Assembly (NCBI GenBank): GCA_026988735.1
Contig: JALSKR010000139.1
Location: 1-15,385, forward strand
DNA length: 15,385 nucleotides
Source: Sulfurimonas sp.
GTDB lineage: Bacteria > Campylobacterota > Campylobacteria > Campylobacterales > Sulfurimonadaceae
Direction: 5' to 3'
A program made the translations under genes and the position numbers. Numbering within the stretch: position 1 is the first letter of the stretch; each line of letters opens with the position of its first letter. This document shows positions 1 to 6,974 of the stretch, in pieces. Below the pieces are notes generated by a model. The model ran no database searches. It saw only the letters and a program-made list of their open reading frames with translations, and was not told where the DNA came from.

Positions 1-406
1 ACGCGGCGTTGCTGCATCAGGGTTTCCCCCATTGTGCAATATTCCTCACTGCTGCCTCCCGTAGGAGTCTGGTCCGTGTCTCAGTACCAGTGTGGCGGAT
101 CATCCTCTCAAACCCGCTACCCGTCATCGCCTTGGTAGTCTCTTACACTACCAACTAGCTGATGGGATATAGACCGATCCCTTGGCGGAATCCATTTCCC
201 AACTTACCTTTTGGTAAGAAGGAGTATCCGGTATTAATCATCGTTTCCAATGGCTATCCCGGTCCAAGGGGCACATTATCTATATATTACTCACCCGTGC
301 GCCACTCGTCAGCAAAGTAGCAAGCTACTCTCTGTTACCGTTCGACTTGCATGTGTTAAGCACGCCGCCAGCGTTCATTCTGAGCCAGGATCAAACTCTC
401 CATAAT
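1..406 (-). rRNA. rrs: 16S ribosomal RNA, 5' part (runs off left edge)
   Basis: Read on the minus strand, 401-381 gives the near-universal 16S start GAGAGTTTGATCCTGGCTCA. The conserved ACTCCTACGGGAGGCAGCAG block lies near 70-50. Aligning the start with the E. coli 16S 5' end puts the mature terminus near 406. Only about 400 nt (V1 to V3 region) are present and the gene continues beyond base 1. The variable regions look like Sulfurimonas and relatives, from memory and without a database comparison. The gene follows an unusually structured leader and lies downstream of the M14 peptidase gene on the same strand. Confidence 0.97.
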
Positions 407-415
407 TGGAAACGC

Positions 416-546
416 AAAAGGGAGTAATCCCTTTTACTACGCTAACGCTTGGTTTGACTCGGCGTCAAGCCCATCGCACTAGTGCGATTGAGCTCTCTGC
501 TGAAGAGAACTCAGTGTTAACGTAGTTATCGGAATTACTTCCGATA
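416..546. repeat. Inverted dimer of a structured GTAG/hairpin repeat in the 16S leader
   Basis: Two copies of one unit meet head to head at the palindrome ATCGCACTAGTGCGAT (473-488). Left arm, read on minus: hairpin A (451-458 with 464-471, 8 bp, one G-U), a core ending in GTAG (complement of 437-440), then hairpin B (416-423 with 428-435, 8 bp, TTAC loop). Right arm, read on plus: hairpin A (489-497 with 505-513, one mismatch), core GTGTTAACGTAG (514-525), then hairpin B (527-534 with 539-546, 8 bp, TTAC loop). Arm lengths are 65 and 66 bp. GTAG beside a hairpin, in inverted pairs, resembles REP/BIME elements. The element ends about 10 nt upstream of the mature 16S end, so it is transcribed in the pre-rRNA. 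I do not recognise the family. Confidence 0.85.
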
Positions 547-669
547 GCGTATTAAATTTAATCTTTTGCCCAAGATTATTAAATCATTGGCTTTGTTATT
601 TTAAGTCTTAATAAAACTGCTTAAAGCTTTATTACTAGACTGTATAGTTATCTATTACTATTAAGGGAA

Positions 670-983: not shown

Positions 984-3572
984 CTAATTATTTACTTCAA
1001 TATATGCAGGCTCAGAAAAATTTGGGACATCATCATAAGAAAATACTGCATAATATTTGTGTACATTTGTATCGCCAAAATTATCATATGTGTAATTATC
1101 ACTGCCTCCATATAATTTTTGTCCGTCATATGGAGAACAGGGAACTTTAAATCTGTTTTTGACTACTATCACTCCTTTATATCCGTCATCATCCGGTGTA
1201 TCCCACTGTAGTTTTATTATTCCGTTTTCCATACTCGCTCGTAAATTTTCTACTTGTTTGGGAGGGTTTTTTCTTTTACGTATATAATCCAGTGTCAGTG
1301 TCGGTTTATTGATTTTTTTATTATCTATCCAATTAACATCAGTATTTTTTGATGTTTCACTTTCAGATGAAGCGGATATGACAAAAAAAGCTTTCTTGTT
1401 TTTTTGTGCCATTTCAAGCATTTCATTAATTGCATAGGTATCAAAAACAAATCTCTGTTTTGAAGAACTTTTAATCTCTGTTACGCTTACATCATACCCT
1501 ATTCTTTCAATTATCTTTCTGTTTTTTATCTTCTCATATGTAACTTCGTCTGGAATCGGTTCTATCAATTCTATGTGAAAACGTAAATTATTTTCTTTTG
1601 CATTTATTTTATATGCCTCTAGATCTATATAGGCATCAGATACTACTGTATTTTCCATATCCGGTAAATTTAACAGATCAAATTCAATACAGGCATATTT
1701 CAAGTCTCCATTTGCATCATATCCGGATTTAAGTGCAGTGTCTTTAATATCATCCCTGTTTAGAGTAAACTCATAAGAAGACTGGATATCCAGTTTGGCT
1801 TCTCGTATAGTATAGGAAATATCAAGTTTTGGTCTATAAGTCAATCCACCGCTAAATTTTCCATACCCTATATCCCACTGCATTAACTGAGAAGCTCTGT
1901 CAAGCGGTAAGGAAGTTGGTCCCTGCATTCTGAAATATGCCTCTCTTCTTTTTAAAGCTTTTTCAAGAACTTTTATTTCCTGTTCTGCAAACTCATACTC
2001 TCTCCAGACACCTTGTGCCAATTGATGAGAACATGTTGGTCTGTCTATATAAGAAAGCATTTTTACATTTTTTATATCATCAAAACTGTCAAGTTTATCA
2101 ATCGTGCGTTCATCCATCTGTCCTACACGCCACTGGCCATAACGCTCAACCTGAACAGCAACTCTGTTCATTGGATAAAACGAAATTTTTGCTGCTGTAA
2201 TAATTGCATTTTCAGGAATAGTTGCCAACGAAAACCCGCATACGCCATAACATTCACCTTTTTGTTCTGAAATACCGACAAAAAGAGAATTATTACCAAA
2301 ATGATCTTTATTCTTTTGTGTTTTTTCCCCAACATAACCAATTTTACTGGCAAGCGGATATAATATTTTAGAAAACATGTTTTCAGCAGGTTTTGTTCGT
2401 ACTCCAACAAGTTGTGCATAAGGAGATTTGATTGATTTGGCTTTACACACGGCACGAATGTAATAATAATAATTTGTCGCACTTTTTAAATTTGAATCTG
2501 TAAAACTTTTCATTTTTGTTACAGTAATTCTGTTGGATGCCTGCGCAAAGCCTTTTAATTTTTTTGACCGGTAAATTTCAAAATAAATTGTTTCATCTTC
2601 TATATAATCCCAAGTTAATTCTATCTCTTTAGCCCCAATACTTTTAGCAACAAAATTTTGCACTCGTTCTAAATTGTCTTCCTTTTTATAATTATTCACT
2701 TCAGAAAGTGCCATAATCAAAGCAGGAATATTCTCTTTGATATTTTCACTCATATGTTCAATATAATCACTGATGTTTCGTGTGCCAACTTCAGCAACCA
2801 ACGACAGTGCACCTTGTGAATAATAAAATTCTCTACCACTTCCCGAAATTAAATGCACAGGAGGTTTACCCATATGAATCCCATACTCTCTTGATGATTC
2901 TTTTCGTATCTCTTCTGCCATATTCCCTGCAAGCAGATTTAAATCCACGGCATCCTCTGCATCTTCATGCATAAAATTATGTGCAGGAAAAAACACATTC
3001 CCCTGAGAATGATAATCCAAGGCTATCGTAATATTTTTATGTGCTAGAAAGAAATCCCGCAGTGCCACTGTTTCAGGTTCACTGAACGGTTCAGGACCGG
3101 AGTAAACATTAGAGGTATAATTTTTGTTTGGAGCAAAACCTACACTGAAGTTTCGATTTAAATCTACTCCGTAACTTCCATCAGGATTTTTTCTACGATT
3201 TTTTCTCCAAAAAGAAAAATGATTTCTTGAGTACTCAAAACCATCCGGATTTGCACAGGGAACCATATAAAGTGTAGTATTGTCCAGTATTTTATTAAGC
3301 TGTGGATCATAATCAATATGTTCCAAAATATATTTTGCAAAAGAGAGAGAAAGTTCTATACCTATCCACTCTCTTGCATGAATTGTACCTGTATAAAAAA
3401 GTGCAGGTTTTGTTTGGTGCACCGCTACATTTTTGCTGATTGAAACAGCAATGATATCTCTGTTTTCCCAAGTTTGACCTATTGTTTCTATTTTAACAAG
3501 ATGTGGATATTTTTTTTGAGCAGAATTAAAAAAATTTATACATTCATCGTATGAACTATATTGTTGTCTCAA
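984..3572 (-). CDS. M14 zinc carboxypeptidase with FN3 and DNRLRE-like domains
   Basis: The 862-aa protein opens with a peptidase M14 domain (about 1-290). Zinc ligands are H65 and E68 (HxxE in HAREW) and H188 (YHSQG). NPDG (108-111) and NRN (139-141) match substrate-binding positions, and E261 (AEVGTR) fits the catalytic glutamate. An FN3-like domain (about 303-394), two beta-rich segments resembling DNRLRE domains (about 400-765) and a C-terminal FN3-like region follow. It should remove C-terminal amino acids from a peptide or protein. The start is TTG with GAAGG seven bases upstream; the ATG just before it is out of frame and stops after two codons. There is no room for a signal peptide, odd for accessory domains typical of exported proteins. 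It follows the ATP-grasp gene by 33 nt in the same frame. Substrate unknown. Confidence 0.9.
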   Translation of the reverse strand: MRQQYSSYDECINFFNSAQKKYPHLVKIETIGQTWENRDIIAVSISKNVAVHQTKPALFYTGTIHAREWIGIELSLSFAKYILEHIDYDPQLNKILDNTTLYMVPCANPDGFEYSRNHFSFWRKNRRKNPDGSYGVDLNRNFSVGFAPNKNYTSNVYSGPEPFSEPETVALRDFFLAHKNITIALDYHSQGNVFFPAHNFMHEDAEDAVDLNLLAGNMAEEIRKESSREYGIHMGKPPVHLISGSGREFYYSQGALSLVAEVGTRNISDYIEHMSENIKENIPALIMALSEVNNYKKEDNLERVQNFVAKSIGAKEIELTWDYIEDETIYFEIYRSKKLKGFAQASNRITVTKMKSFTDSNLKSATNYYYYIRAVCKAKSIKSPYAQLVGVRTKPAENMFSKILYPLASKIGYVGEKTQKNKDHFGNNSLFVGISEQKGECYGVCGFSLATIPENAIITAAKISFYPMNRVAVQVERYGQWRVGQMDERTIDKLDSFDDIKNVKMLSYIDRPTCSHQLAQGVWREYEFAEQEIKVLEKALKRREAYFRMQGPTSLPLDRASQLMQWDIGYGKFSGGLTYRPKLDISYTIREAKLDIQSSYEFTLNRDDIKDTALKSGYDANGDLKYACIEFDLLNLPDMENTVVSDAYIDLEAYKINAKENNLRFHIELIEPIPDEVTYEKIKNRKIIERIGYDVSVTEIKSSSKQRFVFDTYAINEMLEMAQKNKKAFFVISASSESETSKNTDVNWIDNKKINKPTLTLDYIRKRKNPPKQVENLRASMENGIIKLQWDTPDDDGYKGVIVVKNRFKVPCSPYDGQKLYGGSDNYTYDNFGDTNVHKYYAVFSYDDVPNFSEPAYIEVNN

Positions 3573-3605
3573 ACCATTGCCTTCAATTTTTTTGAAATGA
3601 TACTC

Positions 3606-4520
3606 TTACTTCGTTTTTCTGTCAATTAAATCTACAATTAAATCAATTTTTTTGTCATTAAAGTTTAATCCGATTTTTTCCTGTTCGGGAGTGGCAAAGG
3701 CGGGAATGCCGTTTACCTCTAAAACAATATATTCTTCTCTTTCTCTGTCATAGATAATATCAACACCTCCAATATCCACACCTGTTGCCTTGCATGCTTT
3801 TTTTGCAATACTGACAACTTCATCATTTGCTTCACGTACAAAAACACTGCCGCCGCTTGTTACATTTGTGCGCCAATCAGTTCCACTGGCTTTTCTTCCA
3901 TAACAGGAGACAAATTCTCCGTCAACTATATCAACTCTAAAGTCTGTATTGTCATAATCAATAAATTTTTCTACATAAAAATAACGTAAATCCATCTGAT
4001 TTAAAAAAGGCATAAGCATATCCAGACTTGCCTCATTCTCAATTTTGGTAAGTCCGACTCCGCCCCAACCGTCAGTCGGTTTGTAAACCATTTTGTCCCA
4101 TTTCTTAATGATTTTTTTAAGTTCATGCCCGTCATCTCTGTGGCATAATTTATAATCAGCTGTCTTTACCCCGTTGTTTCTCAAGACAAAAGAGGTTTGA
4201 AATTTATCTTCTGTTAATGCGAAAGTCTCATACGAGTTTATCATTGGAATAATCCGGTTAAGTGCCTGATAGAGATACATTTGATACTGAGTCTGTTCTC
4301 CAGCATTATAAGAAAAAAACAAATCAAGTTTATCAAGTTTTTCTCCATGATATTCACTCCCATGATAAAGAATATGAGCATTTTTTGCAATTGCATGACG
4401 TAAATTAATGTCATTTAATACTTCAATATCTCTTTCTTTGAGCTTTTTTATTATTTTCTTTGCAATTTTTTCTCCGCCACCATTTTTATACAGCCACATG
4501 CCGATTTTTCTTTTTTCCAT
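3606..4520 (-). CDS. RimK-like ATP-grasp ligase
   Basis: At 304 aa it has the size and fold signature of RimK-type ATP-grasp ligases, which join a carboxylate to an amine through an acyl-phosphate. Visible elements are an ATP-binding lysine (K147 in MVYKP), a glycine-rich loop GWGGVG (151-156), DFRVD (193-197), the GRK segment near 208-210, and the metal-binding set D254, E268 and N270 (VLEVNG). An N-terminal domain (about 1-100) precedes these. The start is ATG with GGGGA overlapping the stop of the M20 gene, so the two are probably translationally coupled. RimK relatives ligate glutamate to ribosomal protein S6, to cofactors, or to carrier proteins. The acceptor here cannot be told from sequence, and no LysW-like carrier lies nearby. 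Confidence 0.88.
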   Translation of the reverse strand: MEKRKIGMWLYKNGGGEKIAKKIIKKLKERDIEVLNDINLRHAIAKNAHILYHGSEYHGEKLDKLDLFFSYNAGEQTQYQMYLYQALNRIIPMINSYETFALTEDKFQTSFVLRNNGVKTADYKLCHRDDGHELKKIIKKWDKMVYKPTDGWGGVGLTKIENEASLDMLMPFLNQMDLRYFYVEKFIDYDNTDFRVDIVDGEFVSCYGRKASGTDWRTNVTSGGSVFVREANDEVVSIAKKACKATGVDIGGVDIIYDREREEYIVLEVNGIPAFATPEQEKIGLNFNDKKIDLIVDLIDRKTK

Positions 4521-4529
4521 TTACATCCC

Positions 4530-5633
4530 CTAAAATTTTAAATTTTTTATAAAATATTCAAAAAGTTTTGTACTCATTTCTATACGACTTACAAAACTCT
4601 CTTTACTGGCCCGTTCTTTTACTGTATGATCTCCATCACCATATGGTCCAAAACCATCCAGTGTCACAACGCCACATGCACTGACAATATTTGCATCACT
4701 TACTCCACCTCTTTCTTCTGCTGCTATTTGCTGTTGTGTTATCATCTTGATTTTTTGAAGTAAAGCTGTTGAAGAGTCTGTTGTTTGCATAACATCTCTT
4801 TGTATTCCACCGCTTAATGTCGCTTTTACACCACGAACAAAAGAGGTCTGTATAATCTTTTCTATAGCGCTTAAAACTCTCTCTTTCTCAACAGAATATT
4901 TGTATCTTAATTCAAAAACCAATTGGGCATGAGGAGAAACAGTGTTTGCACCTATTCCTCCTTCAATTTTTCCGACATTCACAGTTGTGCCTTTGTCCAA
5001 ATCTGTCAACTGTACAAGTTTTTGCAGCTTATATGAAAGTTCCAGGTTGGCATCACAACCCTCACTGTAATGATTTCCTGCATGAGCGGCTTTTCCCTCT
5101 ATATCAACAAAGAAAGTTCCTACACCTTTTCGTCCGCTTACAAGTTCTAAGTTTGCACCGGCAGCTTCATATACAAAACAATATGTATATTCTTTGGCAA
5201 GTTCTGCTGTCAGATATTTGGAATCATCACTGCCTGTCTCTTCATCACTCACAAGCAAAATATCAATATTTTGAATTTTCAAGTCTTTACATGTAAGCTG
5301 ACGCAGTGCTTCGAGCAGTACAATATTACCACCTTTCATATCACATACACCCGGTCCGTATACCCAGTCCTCATCTTCTGTAAAATATTCAAATTTTCCG
5401 GGAGGAAAAACCGTGTCAATGTGTCCGAGCAAAAGTAGTTTGGGAGAATTGTTTACATGTAAAGATTTGTAATAGCGATGATCACCGACATTGTCGCGTT
5501 TGTAAATGACAGTTTCAAAACCCAATGCTTCAAACCATTCATCAAAAATTTCTCCGACAAGGTTCACACCCTCTGTATTTTTTGTATAGGAATTTATTTC
5601 TACGACCTTTTTTAAGTCTGCTATGTAGTTCAT
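4530..5633 (-). CDS. M20 family metallopeptidase, carboxypeptidase G2-like
   Basis: At 367 aa it matches the two-domain M20 family. Metal and catalytic residues appear in order: H71 and D73 (GHIDTV), D98 (GPGVCDMKGG), the E131-E132 pair (SDEETGS), E156, and H336 near the C-terminus (GDGDHT). The dimerisation domain includes AAHAG near 182-186. The motifs resemble carboxypeptidase G2 (glutamate carboxypeptidase) more than ArgE or DapE, from memory. It is the first gene of a three-gene unit with the ATP-grasp ligase (9-nt gap) and the M14 peptidase. Its ribosome site is weak (TGGAT). A TATAAT promoter lies about 30 nt upstream. Family assignment is firm; substrate preference is inferred. Confidence 0.9.
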   Translation of the reverse strand: MNYIADLKKVVEINSYTKNTEGVNLVGEIFDEWFEALGFETVIYKRDNVGDHRYYKSLHVNNSPKLLLLGHIDTVFPPGKFEYFTEDEDWVYGPGVCDMKGGNIVLLEALRQLTCKDLKIQNIDILLVSDEETGSDDSKYLTAELAKEYTYCFVYEAAGANLELVSGRKGVGTFFVDIEGKAAHAGNHYSEGCDANLELSYKLQKLVQLTDLDKGTTVNVGKIEGGIGANTVSPHAQLVFELRYKYSVEKERVLSAIEKIIQTSFVRGVKATLSGGIQRDVMQTTDSSTALLQKIKMITQQQIAAEERGGVSDANIVSACGVVTLDGFGPYGDGDHTVKERASKESFVSRIEMSTKLFEYFIKNLKF

Positions 5634-5779: not shown

Positions 5780-6139
5780 TTATTTTCTTCTAAGTTCTTT
5801 AATACGAGCTTTCTTACCGGCAAGTGCACGAAGATAAAAGAGTTTCGCACGACGAACACGACCACGACGAATAACTTTTATTTCATTGATTGAGTCAGAA
5901 TAAATTGGGAAAATTCTTTCAATACCAACACCGTTGGCACCAATTTTACGAACTGTAATTGTTTGACCAGTTCCCTGACCACGCTTAGCTATACAAACAC
6001 CCTCGTAGTTTTGTACACGAGTTTTGTCACCTTCTTTAATTGTTACTGCTAAATTTACAGTATCACCAGCACGAAAATCAGGAATGTTTTTTTCTGCAGT
6101 TTGTGCTTTTTCAAAGTTTTCAATATACTTATTTCTCAT
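5780..6139 (-). CDS. rplS: 50S ribosomal protein L19 (bL19)
   Basis: The 119-aa basic protein matches bL19 throughout: N-terminal [13 protein letters not shown], the GDTV and [12 protein letters not shown] segments, [16 protein letters not shown], and the arginine/lysine-rich tail [23 protein letters not shown]. bL19 sits at the 30S-50S interface of the large subunit. The start is ATG with AAGGA about 10 nt upstream. It closes the rpsP-khpA-rimM-trmD-rplS operon, the standard bacterial order. It is separated from trmD by 133 nt, far more than the near-zero spacing elsewhere in the operon, and that gap holds two hairpins and a repeat also found in the 16S leader. A 7-bp hairpin (5773-5791) overlaps the stop codon but lacks a T-run, so I do not call it a terminator. 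Confidence 0.98.
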
Positions 6140-6165
6140 AAGACTAGATCCTTAATTTATTTCAT

Positions 6166-6187
6166 AAATGAAGGAAACCCTTCATTT
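6166..6187 (-). other. Perfect 9-bp hairpin in the rplS 5' region
   Basis: AAATGAAGG (6166-6174) pairs perfectly with CCTTCATTT (6179-6187) around a 4-nt loop. On the transcript it lies between the structured repeat and the rplS ribosome binding site, about 10 nt upstream of the AAGGA. It could modulate rplS translation or mRNA processing. There is no T-run typical of a terminator. Confidence 0.5.
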
Positions 6188-6198
6188 GATTTATAACG

Positions 6199-6270
6199 AG
6201 AAAGGAAGTAATTCCTTTCTCTACGTTAACACTTGGTTTTTCTTGGCGAAAAGCCCATCGCACTAGTGTG
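6199..6270 (-). repeat. Single copy of the structured GTAG/hairpin repeat (trmD-rplS gap)
   Basis: Read on minus, it starts three nt after the trmD stop codon. It contains CACTAGTGCGAT (6268-6257), hairpin A (6235-6242 with 6248-6255, 8 bp), core AAGTGTTAACGTAG (6234-6221), and hairpin B (6199-6207 with 6212-6220, 9 bp, TTAC loop). It aligns end to end with both arms of the inverted dimer at 416-546. Against the left arm, hairpin A carries two compensatory base-pair swaps and hairpin B one, so pairing is kept while sequence drifts. It is transcribed between trmD and rplS. It could be a REP-like mobile repeat or a conserved RNA structure. Confidence 0.85.
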
Positions 6271-6272
6271 CT

Positions 6273-6974
6273 TTAAGACAATCGCTGTGTAACTTTATGC
6301 TTTAATAGCTGCTCAGGTCTAAAAAATTTGGTCTTTGCTTCAGACAAGGCTAATTTTAGTGAGCGAATTTTACTATGATTTCCCTTTAAGTATTCTGATG
6401 GAACACTTAAACCCTCATAGTTTTGTGGTTTTGAAAAAGACGGTGCTTCTAAAAGTGGTGTTTCAAAACTCTCAACTTCTAAAGATTCAGAGTTTCCAAG
6501 TACACCTTCTTTATTTCTGCTTATGGCATCACAGAGTACCAGTGAAGCCAATTCGCCTCCGGTTAAAATATAATCACCAATGGAGAATACTTCATCAGCA
6601 TATTTTTCTATAACTCTCTCATCTATTCCCTCATATCTTCCACTCACAAAAGCTATATGGGATTTTTTTGCCAAACGTTTTGCATCATTTTGTACAAAAG
6701 GTTTGGCAACCGGAGTTACAAAAACAATATGAACATCTTCATCTTTACTTTTTAAATCATCCAAAGCATCAAAAAGCGGTTGAGGATTCATAACCATTCC
6801 TGCACCGCCACCGACTGCCGTATCATCAACTTTAAAATGTTTATTTTTCGAATGATCTCTAGGATTAAGATAATTAATTTCTAAAAGATTCTTCTCAATC
6901 GCTCTTTTTAAAATCGAATCTTTAAAATAACCCTCAATCAAATTAGGAAAAAGGGTAACGAACGTATATGTCAT
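6273..6974 (-). CDS. trmD: tRNA (guanine-N1)-methyltransferase TrmD
   Basis: The 233-aa protein is a SPOUT methyltransferase that makes m1G37 in tRNAs to prevent +1 frameshifting. The knot signatures are present: GGGAGMVM (55-62), [11 protein letters not shown] (111-121) and [11 protein letters not shown] (131-141). R153 aligns with catalytic Arg154 of the gammaproteobacterial enzyme. The positions of Asp169 and Asp177 there are glutamates here (E168 in ESF and E176 in LLE), and the usual HYTRP segment reads SFSKP. I recall a similar change in H. pylori, so it may be lineage-wide. The ATG directly abuts the rimM TAA, with GGAAG inside rimM as ribosome site. The C-terminal domain is slightly short compared with the 255 aa of E. 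coli. Confidence 0.97.

Follow-up and report, generated by a model that had tools for sequence, protein, structure and literature searches.

Dispersed repeats in bacterial genomes are usually short DNA palindromes, and among the structured RNAs that propagate as mobile DNA are the HEARO and OMEGA RNAs and fragments of group II introns. Repeats tagged by GTAG or CGTC have been reported from all divisions of the Proteobacteria, 'alpha to epsilon', and both types from Sulfurovum (PMC3733652, accessible text). REP repeats usually number >100 per genome (PMC2817692, accessible text), and intervening sequences are carried in helix 45 of the Campylobacter 23S rRNA (PMC2801512, accessible text). No description of the unit reported here was found in the literature searched; the nearest, in their accessible portions, are the GTAG repeat papers PMC3733652 and PMC2817692, and the accessible main text of the former makes no mention of pseudoknots.

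The window, meaning the whole 15,385 nt stretch of Sulfurimonas DNA that was analysed, corresponds to contig 139 in the draft genome G000 (1.86 Mb in 291 contigs, 80 % complete). A unit of about 83 nt is located on the minus strand at 6193-6275, in the spacer between trmD and rplS, and two further copies form an inverted pair in the 16S leader (409-553). We consider it likely that this unit belongs to a family of small, non-autonomous mobile repeats that are recognised in trans through their folded single strand, most likely as RNA. Like MITEs and ERIC-type repeats, it is short, non-coding, dispersed and inserted in operons, where it alters the spacers, but it differs from them in having no family-wide terminal inverted repeats, a conserved RNA pseudoknot and duplications of 19-27 bp. 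It is structured and mobile, as are the HEARO, OMEGA and group II elements, but neither a relevant Rfam match nor an associated protein was seen.

The resemblance of the spacer copy to the 16S-leader arms, reported in a first-pass annotation made from the sequence alone, corresponds to a 79 nt repeat (411-489 and 6195-6273) with 81 % identity. The left unit of the inverted pair (409-491, minus strand) is in the sense orientation relative to the 16S transcript, and the right unit (470-553, plus strand) shares a central palindrome with it. The 16S rRNA gene, represented by its 5' part (1-406, minus strand; Rfam RF00177), runs leftwards from 406. Covariance model R1 scored the left, right and spacer copies at 94.2, 91.8 and 93.1 bits, respectively, all three being among the 28 copies on which it was trained. 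The pattern search that first found the window copies gave four matches in the source genome and its reversed control pattern none; the model gave seven matches there in total. The neighbours of the spacer copy are trmD upstream (6273-6974, minus strand; PF01746), the stop codon of which, at 6273, abuts the first hairpin of the unit, and rplS, encoding ribosomal protein L19, downstream (5780-6139, minus strand; PF01245). Between the 16S leader and rplS, the minus strand (984-5633) encodes an M14 carboxypeptidase, a RimK-like ATP-grasp protein and an M20 peptidase in consecutive order, possibly a peptide-modifying set.

The unit consists of a palindromic hairpin, an H-type pseudoknot, a core (GYGTTARCGTAG) and a long hairpin. 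In the spacer copy, read along the minus strand, these are hairpin C, the segment GGC TTTTC GCC AA GAAAA, the core AGTGTTAACGTAG and a TTAC-loop hairpin closed by CGT. Hairpin C (GCAC....GTGC, 6260-6271) was assigned by fold prediction and by compensated helix variation in the alignment described below, with 88 % of cells paired. The pseudoknot (6238-6255), read from the sequence in this copy and recognised by covariation, is made up of P1 (GGC/GCC, 6253-6255 with 6245-6247) and P2 (TTTTC/GAAAA, 6248-6252 with 6238-6242), the outermost pair of P2 not being conserved across the family. Within the core (6221-6233), GY GTTA RC can form a 2 bp mini-hairpin, and Y47 and R52 covary. Hairpin A (6196-6221), with its long stem, TTAC loop and closing ...CGT, was defined by alignment, covariation, an excess of G-U pairs and fold prediction. 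Beyond the unit on the same strand, and recognised from the sequence, are accessory hairpin D (AAATGAAGG/CCTTCATTT, 6166-6187), which is a separate Sulfurimonas-type module, and element E (TTTATGAAATAAA) with TTAAGGA (6149-6168); 8 of 10 genomes contain this pattern. TTAAGGA is likely to be the Shine-Dalgarno sequence of rplS.

Relative to the left 16S arm, the first-pass annotation had listed two swaps in a stem that is P2 here (G-C to T-A and A-T to T-A) and one in the 3' hairpin that is our hairpin A (G-C to A-T). All three are present. The list had lacked two further paired changes in the 3' hairpin, T.G to A-T and A-T to G-C, and neither the pseudoknot nor the covariation between Y47 and R52 had been noticed. 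Contrary to what had been supposed, the TTAC loop is not fixed; it is common in Sulfurimonas-type copies, yet TTAT and others also occur there, and most copies from other genera have different loops, such as CTTTGC.

The fold covaries. Alignment A1 contains 28 copies from the genus, two of the 30 copies found by pattern (L012 and L018) having been left out because of inserts in the pseudoknot. Two-sided changes were present in 19 of the 25 named pairs, and 94.1 % of the cells paired, compared to 76.1 % after shuffling and no more than 54.1 % for any slid partner. The covariation score for the whole structure was 0.569, compared to 0.216 for shuffled and ≤0.18 for all slid versions. The segment GRC-TTCCT-GCY-GA-AGGAA forms the H-type pseudoknot, GRC pairing with GCY and TTCCT with AGGAA. 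Statistics for individual pairs were taken from 265 distinct copies, reduced to 163 by clustering at 85 %, that had been selected on P2 and the core but without requiring P1; in the pattern used for the contig scan, R23 and Y33 were independent of one another and P1 pairs 2 and 3 were fixed. The first P1 pair was standard in all 163 clustered copies (84 A-U, 78 G-C and 1 G-U; shuffled mean 75 %), whereas pairs 2 and 3 hardly differ between copies and carry little information. The inner P2 pairs, on which selection had been made, were standard in 98-100 % of copies (54-78 % shuffled) and Y47-R52, inside the core, in 97.5 % (76 % shuffled). The outermost P2 pair (columns 26-40) was standard in only 53 % and was rejected as a pair of the family.

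Among 207 copies, hairpin A includes 150 G-U but only 14 A-C combinations. As a cruciform formed by both strands would give equal numbers, the strand carrying the unit acts single-stranded, and the simplest reading is an RNA fold, with a single-stranded DNA fold as the alternative. The earlier proposal of selection on the fold has therefore held up. RNA folding z-scores, from minimum free energy folds that cannot represent pseudoknots, were -3.4, -3.7 and -4.0 for the window copies and -2.8 and -2.0 for two copies from other genera. The GTAG preceding hairpin A is invariant in the 28 aligned copies, where the search pattern required it, and near-invariant in wider sets, and its last base belongs to the pair G57-C81, which is A-U instead in G014 and G027. 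At the gathering score, Rfam had no match in the window other than 16S, and searches at ten loci up to E=1 gave none that was relevant.

A hairpin insert of about 20 nt, resembling CTAGGTGCCCCTTGAGGGT, was observed in varying loops of L012, L016, L066 and L131, with related inserts in L018, L256, L264 and L289, and has the appearance of a nested mini-repeat. The scanner, which uses fixed spacing, misses copies with loop inserts, and for the placement classes, loop variants, tandem arrays and examination of transposase loci it also demanded P1 and P2 pairing. Sulfurospirillum-type copies (e.g. L086, L197 and L212) have accessory hairpins like CTTCTTGCAAAA/TTTTGCAAGAAG before the unit and AGAGTTCT/AGAACTCT after it. 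In the survey of these flanking hairpins, and in the direct-repeat and inverted-flank tests, copies with a hairpin end other than.GT were dropped.

Some copies are flanked by long target duplications. Direct repeats scoring ≥15 flank 11 of 207 isolated copies, where 0.3 were expected from shuffled pairs. Four are clear and non-repetitive, namely 27 bp at L095, 25 bp at L188, 25 bp with two mismatches at L189 and 19 bp at L135; the other high-scoring repeats are accessory hairpin modules or leftovers of tandem copies, and most copies are without any target duplication. In the four duplicated insertions, the 3' border falls 13-14 nt past CGT and the 5' border 5-23 nt before the unit. The duplication at L095 (genome G225) is the only one that was checked against relatives, and it comprises the start of a gene that, from its translation, we take to be bpt (arginyl-tRNA-protein transferase). 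A search of 61 genomes provided 30 bpt loci for comparison, of which 26 are free of the unit, and in 24 of those the start of the gene could be placed. The unit is present in G225, in G436 (the same insertion) and, in decayed form, in G246, and G571 has a different unit nearby. Hence, a target duplication with unoccupied relatives, as seen for mobile elements generally, was found at this site, and empty sites were found at rplS (see below).

By eye, the upstream start and about ten codons of the gene remain at the bpt insertion (L351, L370 and L359). The frame apparently crosses the antisense unit in L351 and L370 to stop near the new start, and stops earlier in L359, in the manner of a leader peptide. 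A test at the protein level for duplicated gene starts next to antisense copies found three cases among 55 tested (0.0-0.3 expected), in genes that we presume to be bpt and queE only.

Near-identical units were found at unrelated loci. The best pairs of units are 93.6 % identical within G092 and within G060 and 97.5 % identical within S. cavolei (G244), and their 5' flanks are only 17-38 % alike. Tandem arrays also occur, and the one in G092 contains five 90 nt units, the last four identical, followed by an ORF that presumably is rplK, to judge from how it begins. Inverted flank matches of ≥13 nt were found for 6 of 213 isolated copies (0.4 expected), the remainder being near the control. Terminal inverted repeats were not found family-wide, and outer repeats of 14-15 nt are confined to a few copies (L089, L177 and L211).

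Mobility by means of a hairpin-binding transposase had been raised in the first-pass annotation. The mobility has been borne out, but a Y1 (RAYT) transposase, the obvious candidate, was not found beside copies and does not track the unit, so that the proposal stands in its general form only. The possibility to be weighed is that the unit is a single-strand DNA element of the REP/REPIN type, mobilised by a RAYT, which is a Y1 tyrosine transposase, with GTAG and hairpin A as recognition signal and the inverted pairs as REPINs or BIMEs. The unit resembles these elements in that GTAG directly precedes a hairpin, at its foot, and in its inverted pairs and its intergenic sites beside stop codons (PMC3733652, accessible text). 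It also has G-T pairs suggesting an RNA function, and Y1 matches, many of them to proteins of ~258-270 aa, were found in 18 of 27 chosen genomes. However, none of 21 Y1 loci, with flanks of up to ~1.5 kb, bears the unit, and no RAYT gene flanked by inverted units was seen among them. Y1 matches were present in 20 of 51 unit-bearing genomes and in 4 of 9 unit-free genomes (60 genomes in both samples), and were absent from G031, G032, G108, G253 and G285, which carry 11-21 copies. RAYT/Y1 as the mobiliser was thus rejected on locus flanks, on co-occurrence and on copy-rich genomes without Y1. Insertion by Y1 enzymes is not expected to leave direct duplications of 19-27 bp, as seen for some copies here. 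The unit differs further in its 83 nt length with a pseudoknot, in its copy number, with no more than 50 seen (6-50 per genome in 18 chosen genomes), and in the pairing of the last base of GTAG, which in REPs is an unpaired end motif (PMC3733652, accessible text). We therefore consider this explanation improbable.

The first-pass annotation had attributed the odd gap between trmD and rplS to the unit and proposed comparing this gap in related genomes. The gap in the window is indeed 133 nt. Among 47 rplS loci from the genus, 42 could be classed by eye; the start was not found in four and one was truncated. The commonest state, in 23 of the 42 with the frame read by eye, is overlapping trmD and rplS with neither spacer nor unit. 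An intact unit is present in six (G000, G011, G014, G072, G027 and G007), a disrupted unit in three (G065, G060 and G064), remnants or the D/E module alone in five (G020, G075, G081, G030 and G080) and other short spacers in five (G071, G073, G003, G019 and G010). Hence, the site is polymorphic between species, the unit has decayed in some lineages, and the gap is absent from the commonest state. The co-existence of occupied and unoccupied states is best read as an insertion that would have replaced the final codons of trmD and opened the 133 nt gap, and that was probably lost more than once.

In the six intact rplS copies, only one of 114 stem cells in P1, inner P2, the core and hairpin A is broken and there are ten two-sided changes, as counted by eye; hairpin C was excluded because it is out of register in the alignment columns and shows broken cells there. 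The letters have changed and the structure has been kept, by either selection in place or gene conversion, and this hints at function in place, or gene conversion, beyond mobility. In G020, G030 and G081, hairpin D and element E are also found at rplS where no intact unit is present, and the D/E module with its likely Shine-Dalgarno sequence may represent a leader repeat in its own right in Sulfurimonas-type genomes.

The near-perfect fold at rplS in six genomes is also what would be expected of a cis-regulatory RNA, either riboswitch-like or a leader bound by a protein, through which ribosome genes and other growth genes are coordinated. Among 179 copies with usable flanks, 128 lie between co-directional genes, and the bias to the sense orientation (85 sense, 43 antisense; one-sided p about 1e-4) would fit such a role, as would operons that recur by eye (e.g. 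rplL, rpmF, dnaK and nifU) and a tRNA gene within 150 nt at 10 of 119 loci selected by pattern, compared to 1.4 % of random positions, though part of this excess reflects the intergenic habit of the unit since random positions include coding DNA. However, one-third of the co-directional copies are antisense, 25 copies are between divergent and 22 between convergent genes (one flank was unknown for four), the neighbours at the 119 loci are mostly unrelated genes, and at rplS the unit is missing from 23 and disrupted or a remnant in 8 of the 42 classed genomes. We therefore regard cis-regulation as very unlikely to be the explanation.

A shared control of ribosome genes, suggested earlier from the rRNA leader and rplS copies, did not survive this comparison, as the unit is dispersed at unrelated intergenic sites in all four orientations, a scatter that the suggestion itself had named as contrary to it. 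A regulator specific to ribosome genes, and acting in the sense orientation only, was rejected on the same spread. Ribosomal-protein neighbours, which we take from N-termini recognised by eye to be rplQ (three times), rplL, rplU and rpsI, were seen at six of the 119 loci. Ribosome-related neighbours seemed commoner among the first 30 loci from the genus (rplS, rpmF twice, rpsN-rpsH, rplJ-rplL, rpsG-fusA, 16S and 23S), and some enrichment for ribosome genes is possible. No copy was inside an ORF of ≥200 aa (0 of 179, using a simple ORF caller), and the upstream stop codon is a median of 21 nt before sense copies.

Inverted pairs are also found in or next to rRNA genes in other genomes. In G012 (L025, 1377-1538), a pair interrupts the 23S gene at about nt 1180, with 188 nt between the aligned halves compared to 14 in another genome; by E. 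coli numbering, we take this point to be helix 45. The pair is present at four places in G253 (L079; C1 762791, 1641306, 1817665 and 2223023), and the one place checked with Rfam is a tRNA-23S spacer. Fold prediction gave a single long hairpin for the G012 pair and branched structures for the 16S-leader and G253 pairs. The G012 pair interrupts 23S as the Campylobacter intervening sequences do, but the unit is mainly found elsewhere, and the likeness to the sequences described is one of position (PMC2801512, accessible text). These pairs, the single long hairpin and this likeness would agree with a processing or stability element, now immobile, the hairpins of which are RNase III or other RNase stops tolerated as spacers in operons and rRNA. 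This leaves the near-identical units at separate loci, the target duplications and the tandem arrays unexplained, and we consider it unlikely as the primary explanation; a role in processing or stability may well be a secondary effect.

The repeat is widespread. Using R1 (E 0.01), the unit was detected in at least 88 of 100 genomes from the genus and at least 66 of 199 from the order (21 of 70 sampled genera), and with a second model, R2, at a stricter E of 0.001, in at least 80 of 397 from the phylum, these being lower bounds because only a limited set of candidates was scored in each genome. The copy numbers of 6-50 given above came from a deeper search, and in the genus sample they range from one upwards. 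An exact-pattern scan of contigs found at least 120 stretches bearing the unit. The stretches listed are labelled as Sulfurimonas, Sulfurovum, Sulfurospirillum, Sulfuricurvum, Arcobacter, Hydrogenimonas and unclassified Campylobacterota-type bins, apart from L140 and L158, which are labelled merely 'Proteobacteria', and neither Campylobacter nor Helicobacter is named among the 120. The repeat has so far been found only in Campylobacterota-type genomes. With one copy as query, plasmids gave a single partial match (Sulfurovum mangrovi, 55 of 84 nt, 80 %) and annotated phages none. Viral contigs contained one copy (L273), and the genes of this contig look phage-like by eye; the unit is just upstream of an ORF, apparently in a structural gene region.

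Returning to the mobile repeat recognised in trans, the unit would be transcribed with the host operon, and an enzyme supplied in trans would recognise the fold, either in RNA or in single-stranded DNA, and reinsert the unit. New copies would survive where genes stay unbroken, beside stop and start codons within operons, and would also be tolerated as inverted pairs in rRNA leaders and spacers and in one 23S gene. Downstream of many sense Sulfurimonas-type copies is a hairpin module that has a Shine-Dalgarno sequence of its own, and this may maintain translation of the following gene. The long variable duplications (27, 25, 25 and 19 bp), the fixed 3' and variable 5' borders and the G-U bias led us to consider a SINE-like bacterial retroelement, in which a short structured RNA would be reverse transcribed in trans and inserted by target priming. 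We hold this more specific form to be rather unlikely, and a plausible role for the pseudoknot is as a handle for a reverse transcriptase or an integrase.

Across many genera, this mobile unit keeps an elaborate RNA-like fold that contains a pseudoknot, and rRNA genes are among its sites. As such, it is a testable case of selection on RNA structure within a mobile repeat. The unit also points to a further mobilising enzyme, and it provides a way in which spacers grow, gene starts become duplicated and 23S is perhaps fragmented within the phylum.
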